Below are positions 187 through 7,680 of a stretch of 18,982 nt of DNA, piece by piece. Location of the stretch: the NCBI GenBank assembly GCA_023230825.1, contig JALNWO010000018.1, positions 1-18,982 of the forward strand, given 5' to 3'. The notes beneath the pieces were generated by a model. That model searched no databases. It had not been told where the DNA came from and saw only the letters and a program-made list of their open reading frames with translations. This DNA is from Acholeplasmataceae bacterium (GTDB taxonomy: Bacteria > Bacillota_I > Bacilli_A > Acholeplasmatales > Acholeplasmataceae). The translations under genes and the position numbers were made by a program. Each line of letters begins with the position of its first letter. The stretch's first letter is position 1.

Positions 187-224
187 GACAAAATAAAAGA
201 TGTTTATCTCTCGATAAACATCTT
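187..224 (-). terminator. Rho-independent terminator after pepC
   Basis: On the minus strand a perfect 12-bp stem (AAGATGTTTATC paired with GATAAACATCTT, loop GAGA) is followed by a T-rich tract (TTATTTTGTCTTT). It lies 10 nt beyond the pepC stop and closes the jetABC-pepC unit, separating it from the tRNA genes. Confidence 0.85.
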
Positions 225-234
225 CATTCTATTC

Positions 235-1572
235 TTATGCAAGAGACCCCATTGGATCCCAAGGTTTCAAGATAATTGGGGCTTTTTCCCATGCTGCTTT
301 TTGTTCTTTAGATAAGTGTTTATGGTGAATGACGGCTTGATAAACAAATCGATCAAACCATGTGTCACTACACATATAAAAGCCTTTATTACCGCTTTGT
401 TCGCCCCAGCTGTTTTCGATTTTCCACCGCTTAGTTTCATTGTTTTCTAGATGAATCGCAGTAAACACCATGGCGTGGTTCATTGCACTTTGAGAATAAT
501 CTAACTGGTCTTCTTTTGACATGTGAAGCGACATTCCTAATAAGGCTTCATCATCAAATTGTTCATCATCCCATATCCCTGTTTCACGATTGCCATAACG
601 GGCTACATCTGATCCAAACCAAACCACTTCGTTGTCTTCGATTTGTTTTCTTACAAGGGCTTTTAAATCATCCATTTCTAAGTTTAAGTATTTAATATCA
701 CGACCGCCAATCACATTACCTAAATATTCGACTTGAAAAGTGTGTAAGAAAGGTTTGTCTTGTGTAGGTGCATTAATTATGGAGACATAGTCTGATAAAT
801 TAACACCAACATGTTCTTGATAAAAAGTGAGGGGTGTTAAGTCTTTAATAACTTGATATTGGTTGTCTTCTTTTTTGAAGTATTCAAAGTTAAATGTTTC
901 AGGAGGAGTACCAAAGTTTAAGACTAAGAAAGTGTAGAGTTCATCTAGCGTTTGTTTTTTAAGATCTTCAATTGCATCACTTTGGTTATTTTGTGTCAAT
1001 TTTCGAGCGTTTGCGACATACTGTCTTAACTTCACATTAATGATTTGATTCATATAACGGGTTGAGTTTGATGACGTTGTTTCTGGCATCACTTCTTTTG
1101 GGACAACACCGTATTTTTCAACTAAAGAAACAAACATATCCCATTGACCACCGTCTTGAATTCCCATTTTTAAAATGTGTTGGAATTTACGGTCATCTTG
1201 ATCTGCTTCTAAAAAGTCGTCCATCACTTGAATAAAGTAATTGATTTTTTCAAACTTATCCCAAAAAGCGGTGTAGTTATGGGAAAATTCAAATGTCTTT
1301 AAGTCATATTTGCGAGCGAGTTCGTATTTCATAACGTTAAGTCCAGCGAAGATCCAACAACGACCCGTTGCGTGTTGATGGCTTATTGAAAGAGTCGGTA
1401 ATGTTTTAATTTCATGCGAGAACTTGTACTGGTTTTGTTGAGCTTGTTCTTGTTTCATAAAAATCTTACTGAGCTCGCTTTGCATGAGAACACGTTTCAA
1501 TGCTTTTTGAACTGGTTTGTTTTCGAAATTTTGTTGAAACTGCTGTAAATCTTTTTTGGTAATGGCTTTCAT
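235..1572 (-). CDS. pepC: PepC/bleomycin-hydrolase-type cysteine aminopeptidase
   Basis: This is a 445-residue cytosolic cysteine aminopeptidase of family C1B, which removes N-terminal residues from peptides. In known members it acts as a hexamer. The papain-type site is complete: oxyanion Gln66 and nucleophile Cys72 in QHATGRCWIFA, His366 in MNHAMVF, and Asn387 in KIENSWG. The C-terminus, PWDPMGSLA, is the family's conserved tail that reaches into the active site and limits cleavage to aminopeptidase activity. The open frame extends 26 codons further upstream, but the ATG at 1570-1572 is chosen because AAAAAGGAG sits just before it. It begins 13 nt after the jetC stop, with no promoter or terminator between, so it appears to be the last gene of the jet operon and occupies the slot where jetD is normally found. 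It looks like an ordinary housekeeping PepC, and any functional link to JetABC is speculative. Confidence 0.93.
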   Translation of the reverse strand: MKAITKKDLQQFQQNFENKPVQKALKRVLMQSELSKIFMKQEQAQQNQYKFSHEIKTLPTLSISHQHATGRCWIFAGLNVMKYELARKYDLKTFEFSHNYTAFWDKFEKINYFIQVMDDFLEADQDDRKFQHILKMGIQDGGQWDMFVSLVEKYGVVPKEVMPETTSSNSTRYMNQIINVKLRQYVANARKLTQNNQSDAIEDLKKQTLDELYTFLVLNFGTPPETFNFEYFKKEDNQYQVIKDLTPLTFYQEHVGVNLSDYVSIINAPTQDKPFLHTFQVEYLGNVIGGRDIKYLNLEMDDLKALVRKQIEDNEVVWFGSDVARYGNRETGIWDDEQFDDEALLGMSLHMSKEDQLDYSQSAMNHAMVFTAIHLENNETKRWKIENSWGEQSGNKGFYMCSDTWFDRFVYQAVIHHKHLSKEQKAAWEKAPIILKPWDPMGSLA

Positions 1573-1585
1573 TTCTTTCTCCTTT

Positions 1586-4500
1586 TTATATGTATAATCT
1601 TCTTTCATTGTTAAACGCTTCAACGATTGCATAATCATCATCTTTGACAATGACTAAACTGGTGTTGACATAGTTAATAATATTCGAAACTCTTTGCGGG
1701 GGTACCGCGATTAAAAGTTGAATACTTAAAGAATTATAAAACTTCATCATCGCATCGATACGGCTTTCATCCATGTTGTTGAAAGCTTCGTCAAATAAGA
1801 CGATACAGCCGGAGTCAACACGACGGTTTTTCGTTAACAATTGTTGGAAAGAAGCGGCGATAACAATGTAGAAAGGAACTTGTGTTTCCCCACCACTCTT
1901 TTCTTTTGATACTTTTGAGAAAAAGGATTTATTACCATTAATATTCGTCACTTCAATGTCATAAGACATGTAGTTACGATAATCTAAATACTTATACGTT
2001 AAGTGGTCATACTCAGGATCGTTTGAGGCAATCTTATCAAAGAGTTCTTTTAAGACCGCTTCGTGTCGTTTACTAAGGCCTTCAGTAAATAGTGTGTGTT
2101 TTTGAATGGCTTCATTACTCATAATGATGTCATAGTAAATTTTATAGTCTGAATCAACACTTGGACGATAAATTAACTGATAACTATCGGTGCCGAAACG
2201 TTTGTCTTGAAGGGCGAAGTTAAGTTCTTCTATTTGTTGTTGAGCATTTTCAATAGAGGCTCTCAGCTTACCAACAAATTCTTCTTTAAAACCAATTTCA
2301 GAATGCTTTCTAAGTTCGGTAGCTTCTTGTTCGTATTTAACAAGGTCGTTATTCCGGATTTTGAAAGCTTCTTGTTCATAATAGATCAATTCATCAAGCG
2401 ATGGATTGGCACCAAAGTGATAGTTGTCGTTGTATTGACGCATCATATTGGTTAGTTCTGAATTTTCTTTAATGAGCTGATGTTCAAGTGATGTTGATGA
2501 ACTTGCCAGATAGGCAGTAATCGCTTCATGGTCCTGTTTATGACGTTGTTTTAGAGCATAAAATTGGGTGTTTGCCATGCTGAGTTTCTCAGGATGCTTC
2601 CGCGCAAGTTCTTTTTGATTTTCAATGTATTCATCAAGACGCATTTGCGTTTCATCGATACGGTCTAAGACACGTTGTTTCTCTTCTCTTTGAGTTGCAA
2701 TCTTTCCGACCAATTCATCTGACTCAAAACGAAGTTCTCTCCGGGCATGTTTTGCTTTTTCGATTTGATCTTCGATATTTTGTAAGGTTTTACTCTTACC
2801 GAGGCTTTGAATTTGTTCTTCAATGTTCGCATATTCTTTTCGCGTTAAACGAATGAGATCTAAATAACGAATATAACCTTGATGTAAAAGTTGGGCACTC
2901 TTTGATTGGAGTAGCAAACGGGTGATTTGGTCGTTTGTATCGGATAGTTGATACAATGTGTTCATTTCATCTTCAAGGCGAATTAAGCGTTTTTGTTCAG
3001 CTTCTGTTTGTATTTTAGTTGCACTTTGACCGATGAATGGAGTTTCGTATGATCTTGGGTTTAATTGACGCGCTGTGTAATTACTATAGGTCATGCAAGT
3101 GGCAGTAATGGAACGACGATGATTTTTTAAATCTTGAACATGTTCTACCGTTTGTACACCGTTTAAGAGTAGGTTAACATAGTAACGTGCATAGGTATGT
3201 TCAGTCGTAATTTTTTCAGCCAATGAACCAGGAACAATGTCTTCATTTGGTTCTAGTTTTTGAGTGTTAACCAAACCAACTCCATAAATTTTATGTTCAA
3301 ATTTAACCCGTTCGTAAATATCTAAGGCATCGTTAAAATATCGAGGGTCAACGATGATATCAAAACGTTGGCCACCTAAATATCCTTCGAGGGCATTCCG
3401 CCACGTTTCGTCGTTGACTTCAATCATTTCAGAAAGAGCTTGGACGTTGATGTCTCGTTGGTGATGACGTGAAAGTTCCTCATTTAAAGTAGTAATGAGT
3501 TTTTGAACATAATAAGGATAGGTTTTTACATGTTTTTTAAGTTGATTGAGTTTTGTTCTTGATTCATAAATTTGTTCTGATAATTGTTGTTTGTCTGTTT
3601 CAAGTTTATCTTTTTCTAATGTGTAAGCTTGAATAAGCGCTTTGACCTCTTGGTCTAGGTTTGCTAAATGATGATTGAGTTCGGTTGTATCAAGCTGATC
3701 CATGTTTTGTTGGTAATAATTAACAAATTGTCTAAATGCTTCATTCGGAATGAATGTAGCAACTTCTTTAATAACGTTAAACTCTTTTTGTAAGTTTTGC
3801 CGAATTTCAAGAACGTAATCTTTTTGTTTTTCATATTCTTCTGCTTTTTTAGATAGAGCTTCTTGGTAAGAAGCCAACGTTCTTGATAGGTCATTATCGC
3901 TTCGAGCACGTTCTAAATGAAGGATTGAATTGTCGTTTTCTTCGATTTGATTATCAAGCTGTGCTTTGGCATCGCGTAAGAAATCGAGTTGTTTATTAAT
4001 ATGAACAATTTTATTTTCGTTTTCTTTAATAAATTGTTCACGTTTTTCAACCCAATTGAGTTGGTCAATAATCGCATTGATGTCTTTTTGTTTAGTATTT
4101 TGTTCAATCGATTCGCCTTTATCGGCAATGACATCTAATTTTTCCAGTTTTTCTTTATCGTTTTGAATTTGTTGTTCGATGCGTTTTAATTGAGCAACGT
4201 TATTTTTTAGCGATTTGATGTCAATCGGATCATCATCTAGTAAAAACTCGAAAACGAATTCTTGTAAGTCAATCGAACGGAAAGCCAAGGCTTTAGGAAG
4301 AATTTTAGCGTATTTAGTCGCGTCCATCCCGAAAAAACGAGCCAAAGCTTCACGGTATTTCCGTTGTGAGTCAAATGGTGTGAAATCAATATCTAATGTC
4401 TTTAAATATTGTTTCATTGATTTATAGTCACGTGGATATTTTTTGTCTAAAAAGAGTGAGTCATGAATCGAAACGTCATCAAATAAATAGAGTCGCTCTT

Positions 4501-4861
4501 TTAAGTTTCCTGTTTTGGGTAATTCTAAAATCGCGCCAATGATCGCGAACGTTTTTGCTTGTTCATCGTAAAACTCTAAAGCGATGTGGGTAATGACATC
4601 ACCATTACGTAAATACTCTTTATTTTCTGCCCCAATACGGCCTTTAATATAACCTTCTAAAGTCCGTTTCGCATCGTCGGTTGCGGCTACGTTAAATTTG
4701 GAACCACTTCTACCACCAACAAGCAAATATTGAAGGGCGTCTAAAAGTGTCGATTTCCCGGAGCCATTTTCGCCCGAGATTAAAGCATTGTCTTTAATTT
4801 CAATTGTTTGGTTGGTAAATAAATGCCAGTTAACAAGTTTAATCTTCGTCAGTTTCTTCAT
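1586..4861 (-). CDS. jetC: JetC: SMC/MukB-like ATPase of a Wadjet-type complex
   Basis: This 1091-residue protein has SMC architecture. Walker A is GENGSGKST (30-38), the ABC signature is KSGGE (about 988-992) and Walker B is CIVLFDEAF with Asp1024 and Glu1025, followed by the D-loop NNMDE. Long Gln/Glu/Lys-rich coiled-coil arms flank a central hinge-like globular region at about 470-600. The N-terminal stretch after the P-loop (FNVAATDDAKRTLEGY, then YLRNG and IALEFYDEQ) resembles Wadjet JetC more than MukB, and the length fits JetC (about 1100) rather than MukB (about 1480). In Wadjet, two JetC subunits with JetA and JetB extrude DNA loops and present circular plasmid DNA to the JetD nuclease. 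The start at 4861 has a strong GGGGGAGG site and overlaps jetB by 23 nt. All catalytic residues are present, so it should be an active ATPase. Assignment is from recognised motifs, not a database search. Confidence 0.92.
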   Translation of the reverse strand: MKKLTKIKLVNWHLFTNQTIEIKDNALISGENGSGKSTLLDALQYLLVGGRSGSKFNVAATDDAKRTLEGYIKGRIGAENKEYLRNGDVITHIALEFYDEQAKTFAIIGAILELPKTGNLKERLYLFDDVSIHDSLFLDKKYPRDYKSMKQYLKTLDIDFTPFDSQRKYREALARFFGMDATKYAKILPKALAFRSIDLQEFVFEFLLDDDPIDIKSLKNNVAQLKRIEQQIQNDKEKLEKLDVIADKGESIEQNTKQKDINAIIDQLNWVEKREQFIKENENKIVHINKQLDFLRDAKAQLDNQIEENDNSILHLERARSDNDLSRTLASYQEALSKKAEEYEKQKDYVLEIRQNLQKEFNVIKEVATFIPNEAFRQFVNYYQQNMDQLDTTELNHHLANLDQEVKALIQAYTLEKDKLETDKQQLSEQIYESRTKLNQLKKHVKTYPYYVQKLITTLNEELSRHHQRDINVQALSEMIEVNDETWRNALEGYLGGQRFDIIVDPRYFNDALDIYERVKFEHKIYGVGLVNTQKLEPNEDIVPGSLAEKITTEHTYARYYVNLLLNGVQTVEHVQDLKNHRRSITATCMTYSNYTARQLNPRSYETPFIGQSATKIQTEAEQKRLIRLEDEMNTLYQLSDTNDQITRLLLQSKSAQLLHQGYIRYLDLIRLTRKEYANIEEQIQSLGKSKTLQNIEDQIEKAKHARRELRFESDELVGKIATQREEKQRVLDRIDETQMRLDEYIENQKELARKHPEKLSMANTQFYALKQRHKQDHEAITAYLASSSTSLEHQLIKENSELTNMMRQYNDNYHFGANPSLDELIYYEQEAFKIRNNDLVKYEQEATELRKHSEIGFKEEFVGKLRASIENAQQQIEELNFALQDKRFGTDSYQLIYRPSVDSDYKIYYDIIMSNEAIQKHTLFTEGLSKRHEAVLKELFDKIASNDPEYDHLTYKYLDYRNYMSYDIEVTNINGNKSFFSKVSKEKSGGETQVPFYIVIAASFQQLLTKNRRVDSGCIVLFDEAFNNMDESRIDAMMKFYNSLSIQLLIAVPPQRVSNIINYVNTSLVIVKDDDYAIVEAFNNERRLYI

Positions 4862-5477
4862 CTAAATAAACCTCCCCCTCGGTGTATTCGTCAAGTTTAT
4901 TGACGACATCTCTAATTGAGTCTAAGTTTGTTACGTAAAGGATTGTTGGATAAATTTTAATTCGTGCATCGTCTTGAAGACCACGATCAATATAATCAAT
5001 TAAATTGTAACTACGTAAAAAAGTAAGTGCGGGTTTGAGACGATCTTTTGTAATCCGTTTATGATCTAAATAACCAATTCTCGTCAGTTCACTGTGAATT
5101 TCGTGCAAGTAGATTTCAACATCTTCATCTAAAGTCACAAAATCAATTTTTCGTTGATACAAAATCCTTAAGACTAAAATTAAAATACTTTCTGTTTTAC
5201 GCAAGCGAATGTGGTTAAAAAGTTGATCGTTAACGATGTGAACAACCTCGTTATCGCGATAGATATTTAAAGAGAAATCTGCAAGCGTAAAATACGCTTG
5301 GAAAACATCCTTAAAGGCCAGAATAAAGCGATAATCATTGGCGTCACCTGGTTTTCTTTTCGTAATGAAGTTAACTTGAAGCAACTTATTAACGATTCTT
5401 GAAACGTTGTTCTTTTCGCCTTCTTTTAATTCTAAATATTTTTCATTTAATAGTTTAATCGCTGCCGTTTTGTTCAT
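4839..5477 (-). CDS. jetB: JetB: MukE-like subunit (DUF4194)
   Basis: This 212-residue protein matches the size and pattern of JetB/MksE (DUF4194), the winged-helix (KITE-like) subunit that binds the kleisin JetA and DNA in the Wadjet SMC complex. Recognisable stretches are an N-terminal helical segment with FITKRKPGDANDYRFIL (about 37-53) and a central RKTESILILVLRILYQ. The C-terminal winged helix has RLKPALTFLRSYNLIDYID. The tail is very acidic (DEETDED). It starts at ATG 5477 after AGAGGAG, one nucleotide beyond the jetA stop, and its end overlaps jetC, so the three genes are translationally coupled. Confidence 0.9.
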   Translation of the reverse strand: MNKTAAIKLLNEKYLELKEGEKNNVSRIVNKLLQVNFITKRKPGDANDYRFILAFKDVFQAYFTLADFSLNIYRDNEVVHIVNDQLFNHIRLRKTESILILVLRILYQRKIDFVTLDEDVEIYLHEIHSELTRIGYLDHKRITKDRLKPALTFLRSYNLIDYIDRGLQDDARIKIYPTILYVTNLDSIRDVVNKLDEYTEGEVYLDEETDED

Positions 5478-5478
5478 G

Positions 5479-6855
5479 TTATACTCCTCTTATCGTGAAG
5501 TTTTGGAAACTAATACCGTTATTTTCTACCCGGTTTTTCGATGATTCAATTTGGTAATGCATTCCGGTTGATTTTGAATATAAGAAAATTAAAATAAGAC
5601 GCACGAGATCTTCCTGGGTTTCTAGTTGAATCTCACTTGCTTGGATGGATCCATTACCACCGAGTAATGTTTTTACATACGCATCGATTTCTTTTTTCCC
5701 ATAAATGTTATTTTTAAGGAGTGCTCGAATCTTTTCTCGCTTAAAGTCTTCACCGATGATGTTGTCATCATAATAAATTTCTTCTGGTTCTGCATAGACT
5801 CGAGGTCTTCTTTGATTATAAAGTGATTCTGTATCGATGTTTCGTGGTTGAATCAAATAAAACAGTTGGTTATAATCAAATGCTTTTTGTGATAAAACGA
5901 TACGGAAAAGGCGGTTGAAAATCCCCTCAATGTCGTCTGATTGATTTGAGAAAAAGAGAATTTTAGACGCTGCAGCTGTAATATATTGTTCGTTTTTCCG
6001 GTCGATGGCTAAAATTAAATGTTCCAAAGCACTAAAACTATCGGTAATAAAACGCATTCGTTCTTCAATATACAAATAGGCTTCATTATAGTCTTCGATG
6101 CGTTTAACTTTGATGACTGTATTAGCCAGTTCGTCCATGAGTTCAATGTTATTTTGCATTTTATTTATCGACTCTAAAATCCCCCGCTTATAGCGGTTTA
6201 AACTGTCGGTTGTTTTTAAGTTAAAATAGGCTGAATCAAAAAAGTTTTGTTTATATTCAACGAGAAGTTTTTCTAAAAGTTCTGGTAAATCGTCGTGTGA
6301 GTGTTTACGAGTAATATCGTAGTAATAACGATAAATATTTGCCTTGAGAGCTTTTAATTTACGAATGATGTCGTTGGTTTTAGAAAAGGCTTGTTCTAAA
6401 ACACCAATCCCCTCTTCAATTGTGAAGTTGTTTAAAAGAGAATAGACAGTATAAATTTCTCCAGTATATTCATCTTGTTGGTTATAGCGAATGCGATTTA
6501 AAATATCAATGATTTGGATTGAATAATCGAACAAATTCAATGATGTTTTATAGTCACCCAATTCTTCTTCACCAAGCCATCCATTTTTCTTGAGGACGTT
6601 AATAACATGAAGTGCTTTTTGTCTCGAAGTATTCGTTGTTTCTTCTGGTTCCACGTCTAAAAATTGATCGATATAAACATCATCAAAATAATCGACCAAT
6701 TTGCCAATAATAAATTCGCGATCCCCTTGAAAAGCGTCTTCAATGGTATCAATTGCATCGTAAATAATAAAAATACAATCAACGTAAGTCATTCGGTTAG
6801 GTGAGGCAAGCACACTAAAAAAGTTTTCTGGTAGACGATCAAACAATTGTGCCAT
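5479..6855 (-). CDS. jetA: JetA: MukF-like kleisin subunit (DUF5716)
   Basis: This 458-residue protein has the characteristic JetA N-terminus, LFDRLPENFFSVLASPNR, and a GWLGEEELGDYKTSLNLFDY segment (about 92-111), which I recognise from Wadjet JetA (DUF5716). JetA is the kleisin that bridges the two JetC heads and recruits JetB. The protein is mostly helical, with winged-helix-like ends and no catalytic motif, as expected. It is the first gene of the unit. The start at 6855 is supported by AAGGAGG. A candidate extended -10 promoter lies about 45 nt upstream, and the upstream frnE gene is closed by its own terminator, so jetA should start the transcript. Confidence 0.91.
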   Translation of the reverse strand: MAQLFDRLPENFFSVLASPNRMTYVDCIFIIYDAIDTIEDAFQGDREFIIGKLVDYFDDVYIDQFLDVEPEETTNTSRQKALHVINVLKKNGWLGEEELGDYKTSLNLFDYSIQIIDILNRIRYNQQDEYTGEIYTVYSLLNNFTIEEGIGVLEQAFSKTNDIIRKLKALKANIYRYYYDITRKHSHDDLPELLEKLLVEYKQNFFDSAYFNLKTTDSLNRYKRGILESINKMQNNIELMDELANTVIKVKRIEDYNEAYLYIEERMRFITDSFSALEHLILAIDRKNEQYITAAASKILFFSNQSDDIEGIFNRLFRIVLSQKAFDYNQLFYLIQPRNIDTESLYNQRRPRVYAEPEEIYYDDNIIGEDFKREKIRALLKNNIYGKKEIDAYVKTLLGGNGSIQASEIQLETQEDLVRLILIFLYSKSTGMHYQIESSKNRVENNGISFQNFTIRGV

Positions 6856-6899
6856 GCAAGTCCTCCTTAAACGGCTAATCTATCATAATAACTATAAAT

Positions 6900-6908
6900 A
6901 TTGTATCA
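6900..6908 (-). promoter_or_regulatory. Extended -10 promoter for jetABC-pepC
   Basis: The minus strand reads TGA-TACAAT, one mismatch from consensus, with the TGn extension. No clear -35 hexamer lies at 16-18 nt; a TTGAAA exists but is 24 nt upstream. The leader to the jetA ATG would be about 40 nt. A weaker alternative -10 (TATGAT) lies closer to the gene. Confidence 0.5.
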
Positions 6909-6910
6909 CG

Positions 6911-6952
6911 AAAACGATATTTTATCTATTTTCAATCACATTTTATCGTTTT
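6911..6952. repeat. Inverted repeat upstream of the jet -10 element
   Basis: AAAACGATA (6911-6919) is the exact reverse complement of TATCGTTTT (6944-6952), with 24 bp between the arms. The repeat spans the -35 zone just upstream of the jetA -10 element, where an operator would be expected. Centre-to-centre spacing is about 33 bp, near three helical turns. No regulator gene is adjacent, and the AT-rich content makes chance similarity possible. Confidence 0.4.
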
Positions 6953-6987: not shown

Positions 6988-7015
6988 GTAAAAAAAATCC
7001 ATTTAACTTGGATTT
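6988..7015 (-). terminator. Terminator of the frnE-like gene
   Basis: On the minus strand AAATCCA (7015-7009) pairs with TGGATTT (7001-6995), loop of seven, followed by a run of T residues and TTACTTTT. The stem begins inside the last codons of the gene and includes the stop region. The stem is short, but the position and U-tract are good. Confidence 0.65.
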
Positions 7016-7656
7016 CTTCTTTTACGGATGCAATGCTCGCCTTCACAAAATTCGTTTGGATCAATCCCAATTAAGGTTTTGTTTAAGCCTTCGATAATGC
7101 TTTGTTCCGACTGAAGTCCTTGCAATTTTAATTTCCCGTTAATTCTTAAAGTTGGCAGTTCGAAGATGCGTTTTAGTTGGGCATTTTCCTTATTTGATAG
7201 CACTTGTGAGTGATAAAGATCGGTTGTTAAAACACGATCAATATCTGCTTCAAGGAGGCCTGCTTCAAGACTTATTTTCTTAAGGGTGTCGTGGTTACTT
7301 AAATCAAGTCCATCTTCATAGATGGCTTTGAACACCATGTCGATAAATAATAATTGTTTTTTTGCTCGTTTTGCTAAATGAGACATCCGATGAACATCAT
7401 GAATACGAAAGAGTTTGATGTCAAGGTTATATTCTTTTAAAAGAGCTTCAACAGCTTGGAGCGGCAAATGACGATAGGATGCGATAAATTCGGCGTGTGT
7501 CATCGATGGATCCATCTGATCATCATCAACCATTTCGTAGTTGCGATAGATGAGCTCTAAATTATGAATTTCATAGGTTTGTAATAAATTGACGATATTT
7601 TTGTGTTGAATATAACATTTTGGACATAAGAAATCGAGCCAAAATTCTATTTTCAC
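7003..7656 (-). CDS. DsbA-family thiol-disulfide oxidoreductase, FrnE-like
   Basis: This 217-residue cytosolic protein has a DsbA-type thioredoxin fold. The N-terminal strand IEFWLDFLCPKC contains the CPKC redox site (Cys11, Cys14). A helical insertion fills the middle, ELPTLRINGK supplies the cis-proline loop, and a second cysteine pair, CEGEHC (Cys204, Cys209), lies near the end. CxxC plus C-terminal CX4C is the pattern of FrnE. No signal peptide is present. Two GTG starts are possible: the one at 7665 lies inside the ribosome binding site, so I chose GTG 7656, which has GAGG eight bases upstream. The gene has its own promoter and terminator. FrnE-like proteins are linked to disulfide exchange and oxidative-stress tolerance; the exact substrate is unknown. 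Confidence 0.85.
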   Translation of the reverse strand: MKIEFWLDFLCPKCYIQHKNIVNLLQTYEIHNLELIYRNYEMVDDDQMDPSMTHAEFIASYRHLPLQAVEALLKEYNLDIKLFRIHDVHRMSHLAKRAKKQLLFIDMVFKAIYEDGLDLSNHDTLKKISLEAGLLEADIDRVLTTDLYHSQVLSNKENAQLKRIFELPTLRINGKLKLQGLQSEQSIIEGLNKTLIGIDPNEFCEGEHCIRKRRNPS

Positions 7657-7680
7657 ATGAATCACCTCTTTATGACTGTT

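Follow-up and report, generated by a model that had tools for sequence, protein, structure and literature searches.

JetABC without JetD as a probable condensin of the Acholeplasmataceae

A KITE-type complex that lacks JetD and acts on the chromosome is already known as a kind. An example is MksBEF of Pseudomonas aeruginosa, which is regarded as a chromosomal complex that has lost its JetD (PMC10586767) and which works alongside Smc (PMC7485682). MukBEF of enterobacteria, also a complex of the KITE type, apparently replaced Smc-ScpAB as the condensin (PMC10586767). In type-I Wadjet (JetABCD, or MksBEFG), a system directed against plasmids, the toprim nuclease JetD forms the fourth subunit. The stretch of DNA analyzed in this study (the window) is a contig of 18,982 nt from a bacterium of the Acholeplasmataceae, a wall-less organism that we know from this contig; all the counts of genome content given below come from the genomes of its relatives.

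The window carries jetA, jetB and jetC on its minus strand. The jetA gene (5479..6855) encodes a MukF/MksF-like kleisin subunit of 458 aa (PF18982, 272 bits), and jetB (4839..5477) encodes a MukE/MksE-like KITE subunit of 212 aa (PF13835, DUF4194, 83 bits; PADLOC JetB1, 212 bits). The product of jetC (1586..4861) is a MukB/MksB-like, SMC-like ATPase of 1091 aa, which matched the PADLOC JetC1 model PDLC00519 with 1074 bits over residues 1-1087. Pfam and PADLOC place all three proteins in the Wadjet families, and the genes stand in the Wadjet order. The original prediction, made from the sequence alone, had described three intact and tightly coupled genes without jetD, and our analysis confirmed this. 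The ORF coordinates give the predicted 1-nt gap between jetA and jetB and 23-nt overlap between jetB and jetC, and the Walker A (GENGSGKST), signature (SGGETQ) and Walker B (LFDEAF) motifs of JetC can all be read. Neither JetD nor any other nuclease, both of which had been reported missing from the unit, was found among the 10 window ORFs scanned with Pfam.

The predicted borders of the unit held in part. A strong Shine-Dalgarno sequence of jetA, AAGGAGG, was read directly at 6862..6868 on the minus strand (6868-6862 in reading direction), in line with the strong ribosome binding sites that had been claimed. The intrinsic terminator that had been placed at 190-224 is real: a stem at 196..225 (minus strand), after pepC, folds with z = -5.2, and none of 200 shuffles folded as well. 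For the promoter proposed near 6900, there is a weak promoter-like site at 6900..6928 on the minus strand (TAGATA-17-TACAAT, 9/12 matches, with TG before the second hexamer), but the window holds 25 such matches compared to a mean of 26 in shuffles, and they are thus no commoner than chance. The gene pepC (235..1572, minus strand; PF03051), for a C1B aminopeptidase, runs in the same direction as jetC. Read from its conserved start, ATG 1572, it encodes 445 aa and begins 13 nt past the jetC stop; a start at TTG 1650 was rejected because ATG 1572 is the start in the ORFs of most relatives. A tRNA-Pro(ggg) lies at 85-161, directly past the pepC terminator. Upstream of jetA lies a dsbA-like gene (7003..7665, minus strand; PF01323), which is a neighbour only, and other ORFs of the window are those that we take to be PrfB, SecA, a LemA-like protein and MetK.

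The proteins were then compared with known SMC systems. JetC scored 35.6 bits against the curated NCBIfam model of Smc (cut-off 567) and 37.3 bits against the MukB model NF003422 (cut-off 699), so it is neither Smc nor MukB. The solved structures nearest to the JetC profile were the JetC chains 9qxt, 8as8 and 8dk2 of the E. coli and P. aeruginosa Wadjets, and the fold of the JetA model resembles MukF. Families, gene order, PADLOC type-I models and nearest structures all liken the locus to type-I Wadjet; it differs in that the JetD subunit is missing here, and in that jetABC of the Acholeplasmataceae is clade-wide, vertically inherited and slow to change, in genomes that yielded neither Smc nor ScpA. 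With MksBEF of P. aeruginosa it shares an SMC-kleisin-KITE set without JetD (MksG), a likeness drawn from the gene set and its description; P. aeruginosa, however, has Smc beside this set, whereas the Acholeplasmataceae show no Smc or ScpA. The locus resembles MukBEF as a KITE-type complex in the place of Smc-ScpAB and in the MukF-like fold of the JetA model, but JetC, with its 1091 aa, is shorter than the MukB chains that have been solved at full length (1482 aa), and it scores far below the MukB cut-off. With Smc-ScpAB it shares the presumed role; JetC falls far below the Smc cut-off and ScpA was found in none of 113 genomes of the order.

The family set consisted of 67 genomes of the GTDB family around Tenericutes bacterium MO-XQ (G021), requested at a completeness of at least 85%. 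Twenty-two of them, of 0.5-0.9 Mb (G044-G065), were taken as phytoplasmas and are called phytoplasma-size here; G028 and G067 (0.9 Mb) were excluded from this group. Among relatives, 34 of 56 pattern matches in genome contigs encode a homologue with 56-80% identity (best segment, N-terminal part present), from taxa named Acholeplasmataceae, Acholeplasma, Peloplasma, unplaced Tenericutes, Mycoplasmatota and Bacillota. In a larger database, 721 of 7992 scored candidates matched at E <= 0.001, of which the best 120 were listed.

JetA was found in 52 of the 67 family genomes, including one (G032) with a 76-residue piece only. All 15 JetA-negative genomes were searched for JetC, which was found in G033, G040, G041 and G051 (in G041 as a C-terminal piece at a contig end). 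Thus JetA or JetC is present in 56 of 67 genomes, and in 43 of the 45 outside the phytoplasma-size set. JetD, on the other hand, was found in a single family genome, that of G021, where it belongs to a second, complete jetABCD locus. It had been suggested that JetD is encoded elsewhere in the genome or that it was deleted recently from this site. In the relatives the first suggestion fails, and the second is contradicted by the JetD-less form being clade-wide in the Acholeplasmataceae, with jetD consistently absent from the locus when relatives are compared.

The profile search found ScpA in 0/67 family genomes, and no family genome had Smc above the curated cut-off, with at most eight candidate stretches scored per genome. 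The weaker Smc matches listed are coiled coils, P-loop pieces or JetC itself, as judged from the profile range and the place of the match. The same ScpA and Smc models found 121 and 120, respectively, of 257 genomes of the class, where 12 of the ScpA matches carry an in-frame TGA and two Smc candidates only were scored per genome. We therefore consider the detection of ScpA and Smc to be sound.

In order to clarify how jetABC is inherited, we compared JetC with SecA. In a JetC tree of 87 rows, the 33 JetD-less rows of the family (30 plus 3 of phytoplasma size; G010b aside) fall into one starred group. JetC distances track SecA distances among 30 genomes (r = 0.938, Mantel 0/2000), with a median ratio of 0.97 (5-95%, 0.75-1.33). 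Among 33 genomes, 17 of 30 splits are common to the JetC and SecA trees, whereas shuffled sets shared 0.3 splits on average and never more than 3. With this agreement, and with JetA in 52 of 67 genomes, jetABC does not behave as a patchy, horizontally moving defence set. The other groups without JetD and Smc are not all equally slow, because their median JetC/SecA ratios are 1.05 (120 pairs), 1.36 (36 pairs) and 1.72 (6 pairs). In Smc-positive genomes, the ratio was 1.35 for JetD-bearing rows (3 pairs) and 3.0 for JetD-less rows (6 pairs among the four compared), meaning that the latter change about three times faster than SecA. The jetABCD copy of G021 groups with that of G109, a genome of another family, the distance between the two being 0.49 for JetC and 0.81 for SecA; the JetD-less copy of G021, unlike the jetABCD copy, follows SecA. 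One family genome (G010) has a second, diverged jetABC, which is cut by a contig end (L131), and no JetD was found in that genome.

Judging from these genome comparisons, we think it quite likely that jetABC encodes an SMC motor of the type-I Wadjet/MksBEF class without JetD, which does the housekeeping work of a condensin instead of Smc-ScpAB and is apparently the sole SMC-kleisin complex of the lineage. That is, because jetABC lacks JetD, is inherited like a core gene and is apparently the only such machine, it has probably taken over the organizing of the chromosome. An MksBEF-like chromosome organizer was among the explanations offered in the original prediction, and it is the one that the comparison supports. 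We infer this function, and we take the mechanism from the known biology of Wadjet, MukBEF and MksBEF. A JetC dimer with the kleisin JetA and the KITE subunit JetB would hydrolyze ATP, and the complex would extrude loops of the chromosome and contribute to the compaction and separation of the sister chromosomes. In the absence of JetD, the DNA would be released rather than cut once an extrusion is finished or has stalled. Given the knowledge of Wadjet and MukBEF (PMC10586767, PMC10512200), the natural reading is that JetABC extrudes loops as a dimer of dimers. Two features described above for separate complexes, the loss of JetD (MksBEF) and the replacement of Smc-ScpAB (MukBEF), would then come together in a single lineage.

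The genes that follow jetC were examined next. In all 10 distinct loci that hold both genes, jetD overlaps jetC or starts at most 15 nt from it. In JetD-less loci the gene after jetC varies by lineage, and no common fourth subunit was seen. It is pepC in 30 loci, the window included, which belong to one branch of the family only; a PEP-utilizing enzyme of the ptsI type in 11 loci (two from one genome; 1 scanned); an RNA methyltransferase of the rsmE type in 6 loci (1 scanned); a nucleotidyl transferase of the glgC type in 4 loci (1 scanned); small membrane proteins in 5 loci; and single genes in the remaining ones. In other families of the Acholeplasmatales, sepF follows jetC in 7/7 JetD-less loci examined (L107, L108, L110, L112, L114, L118 and L119; PF04472 in 4/4 scanned), G083, at a contig end, standing outside the seven. 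As sepF is a cell-division gene, its position beside jetC hints at a link with the cell cycle. Since other genes follow jetC in other JetD-less lineages, pepC is only a neighbour. The weight given earlier to a peptidase in the fourth slot was thus misplaced, and the proposal of another effector fails as far as the gene neighbourhood tells. In three JetD-less loci of Smc-positive genomes (L082, L087 and L088), a related protein on the opposite strand follows jetABC; it has about 294 aa in two of them and is a 134-aa ORF in L088, and the one scanned had no Pfam match.

The neighbourhood also bears on the explanation that JetABC is still a defence system, in which the complex would recognize circular plasmids and call in, in trans, a nuclease encoded at an unlinked site, be it a distant JetD or some other effector. 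JetA keeps an N-terminal LFD(R)-like motif both with and without JetD, and this motif resembles the IFDR motif that is reported to touch JetD, although that motif was placed on JetB (PMC10586767). In addition, no JetC was seen next to the JetD of G098, a genome of the class, within the stretch fetched, where the contig breaks off 946 bases upstream. However, the one JetD among the family genomes is part of a separate jetABCD locus, the JetD-less lineages share no gene after jetC, and JetABC is inherited vertically at the pace of a core gene and kept in 0.5-Mb genomes. We therefore regard recruitment in trans as quite improbable.

Across the class, JetA was found in 69 of 257 genomes and JetD in 18 over the cut-off (19 at E <= 0.001). 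JetA occurs together with Smc or ScpA in 9 genomes, 7 of which have a JetD match; six of these matches lie directly after jetC, and the weak one of G121 lies on another contig. JetA without Smc and ScpA occurs in 60 genomes, of which 5 have a JetD match: in second loci in G021 and G089, broken in G173, apart from JetC in G098, and in the only jet locus of G109. The last genome, of the same order, has a full jetABCD there (L096), and no ScpA or Smc was found in it; its assembly may be incomplete, or JetABCD may do both jobs. A JetD-less JetABC coexists with Smc in 6 of 13 JetC rows from Smc-positive genomes. Among the JetA-negative genomes, 114 have Smc or ScpA and 74 do not. A search for JetC in 52 of these 74 gave nothing beyond P-loop scraps (E >= 2e-7), and the 74 may have another MksB-like complex or none. 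From these numbers, life without a known condensin seems to be tolerated in the class. The absence of every complex sought is common there, and any claim that such a complex is essential is therefore weakened.

These absences, in 74/257 class genomes and 9/22 phytoplasma-size genomes, favour another explanation, namely that JetABC has an accessory role on the chromosome, in repair or in the handling of replication forks or the terminus, and that these bacteria have no condensin proper. Against this stand the presence of JetA or JetC in nearly all family genomes outside the phytoplasma-size set (43/45) and the pace of JetC, which equals that of SecA. An accessory role thus seems quite unlikely to us. 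It is very unlikely, moreover, that JetABC curbs plasmid or phage DNA by compaction or sequestering without cutting it, with little role on the chromosome. The silencing of circular viral DNA through compaction by Smc5/6 has been discussed (PMC10586767), but from a pure defence system one would expect a patchy distribution, mobility and fast change, whereas JetABC is clade-wide and as slow as SecA, and neither Smc nor ScpA was found in the 67 family genomes.

We also calculated dN/dS values, which are rough because dS is high. They were 0.02-0.09 in four JetC, three JetA and three JetB pairs, compared to 0.03-0.06 in three SecA pairs and 0.09 in a JetD-bearing JetC pair, and no internal stops were found in the jet gene pairs tested; the genes are thus under purifying selection. 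Of 99 JetC rows, 98 reach each of the three ATPase motifs, and these retain the Walker A, signature and Walker B residues apart from conservative changes at one Walker A position in three rows (T for S in G060 and G033, T for N in G298). The idea that jetABC is the decaying remnant of a Wadjet that lost jetD, which the original prediction had rightly rejected, is therefore almost certainly wrong, although such decay exists: besides an intact JetD-less jetABC, the genome G173 has a second Wadjet (L086) in which jetA is split and jetD is broken, and this illustrates what real decay looks like.

As to the direction of change, the JetC tree was rooted with five JetC of plasmid Wadjets, all of which have jetD. 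JetD-less and JetD-bearing rows were interspersed, and the starred branches forced at least five changes of the JetD state in this tree, which was made by a quick method and has several long branches. The tree fits repeated loss of JetD, with repeated gain as the alternative; it favours, but does not prove, that jetABC arose when a defence system of the JetABCD type lost JetD. The jetABC of the order forms no single line of descent in the tree, because the sepF-linked jetABC is not sister to that of the Acholeplasmataceae. An independent-pairs test of JetD loss against Smc loss comprised 3 pairs only, which gave it no power. We would give an even chance to the fuller history, in which an anti-plasmid Wadjet, after the loss of its nuclease, supplanted Smc-ScpAB and came to serve the whole family, including phytoplasmas of about 0.5 Mb, as its only condensin, with similar take-overs occurring several times in neighbouring lineages of the class. 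If this is true, these genomes preserve in living bacteria the path that has been proposed to lead from immunity to the organization of chromosomes.

In the literature searched, we found no report of an entire family, with its phytoplasmas, that has JetABC of type-I Wadjet as its sole complex of this kind. A genomic study that deals with gene losses in the Acholeplasmataceae does not mention smc, scp or segregation in its main text (PMC4221730). As JetABC is the only such complex found in the clade, its role is testable in cultivable, saprophytic Acholeplasma. Our results also warn annotators that matches to JetA, JetB and JetC alone do not make a defence system.

In phytoplasmas, a review of 2011 considered the known repertoire for partitioning to be sparse and anticipated a part for conserved hypothetical proteins (PMC3322544). 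JetA, JetB and JetC are candidates for chromosome partitioning in part of these bacteria. The help is limited, because three of the four genomes in that review (OY-M, AY-WB and 'Ca. P. australiense') showed no JetA or JetC. Neither protein was found in 9 of the 22 phytoplasma-size genomes, at least three of which are closed chromosomes; these three, G044 (OY-M), G046 ('Ca. P. australiense' rp-A) and G057 (AY-WB), showed no ScpA, JetA or JetC and no Smc over the cut-off. Full-length JetC is present in the other 13, of which 12 also have JetA. In all 13, jetB adjoins jetC, although its ORF in G047 is short (155 aa). The jetA gene, where found, lies away from the jetBC pair (L133-L144 vs L232-L234 and L240-L249). 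Despite this relocation, JetA, JetB and JetC look full length in most phytoplasma-size genomes. In two places (L249 and G064:C1:482923-483402), fragments of a second jetC lie just beyond the intact one.
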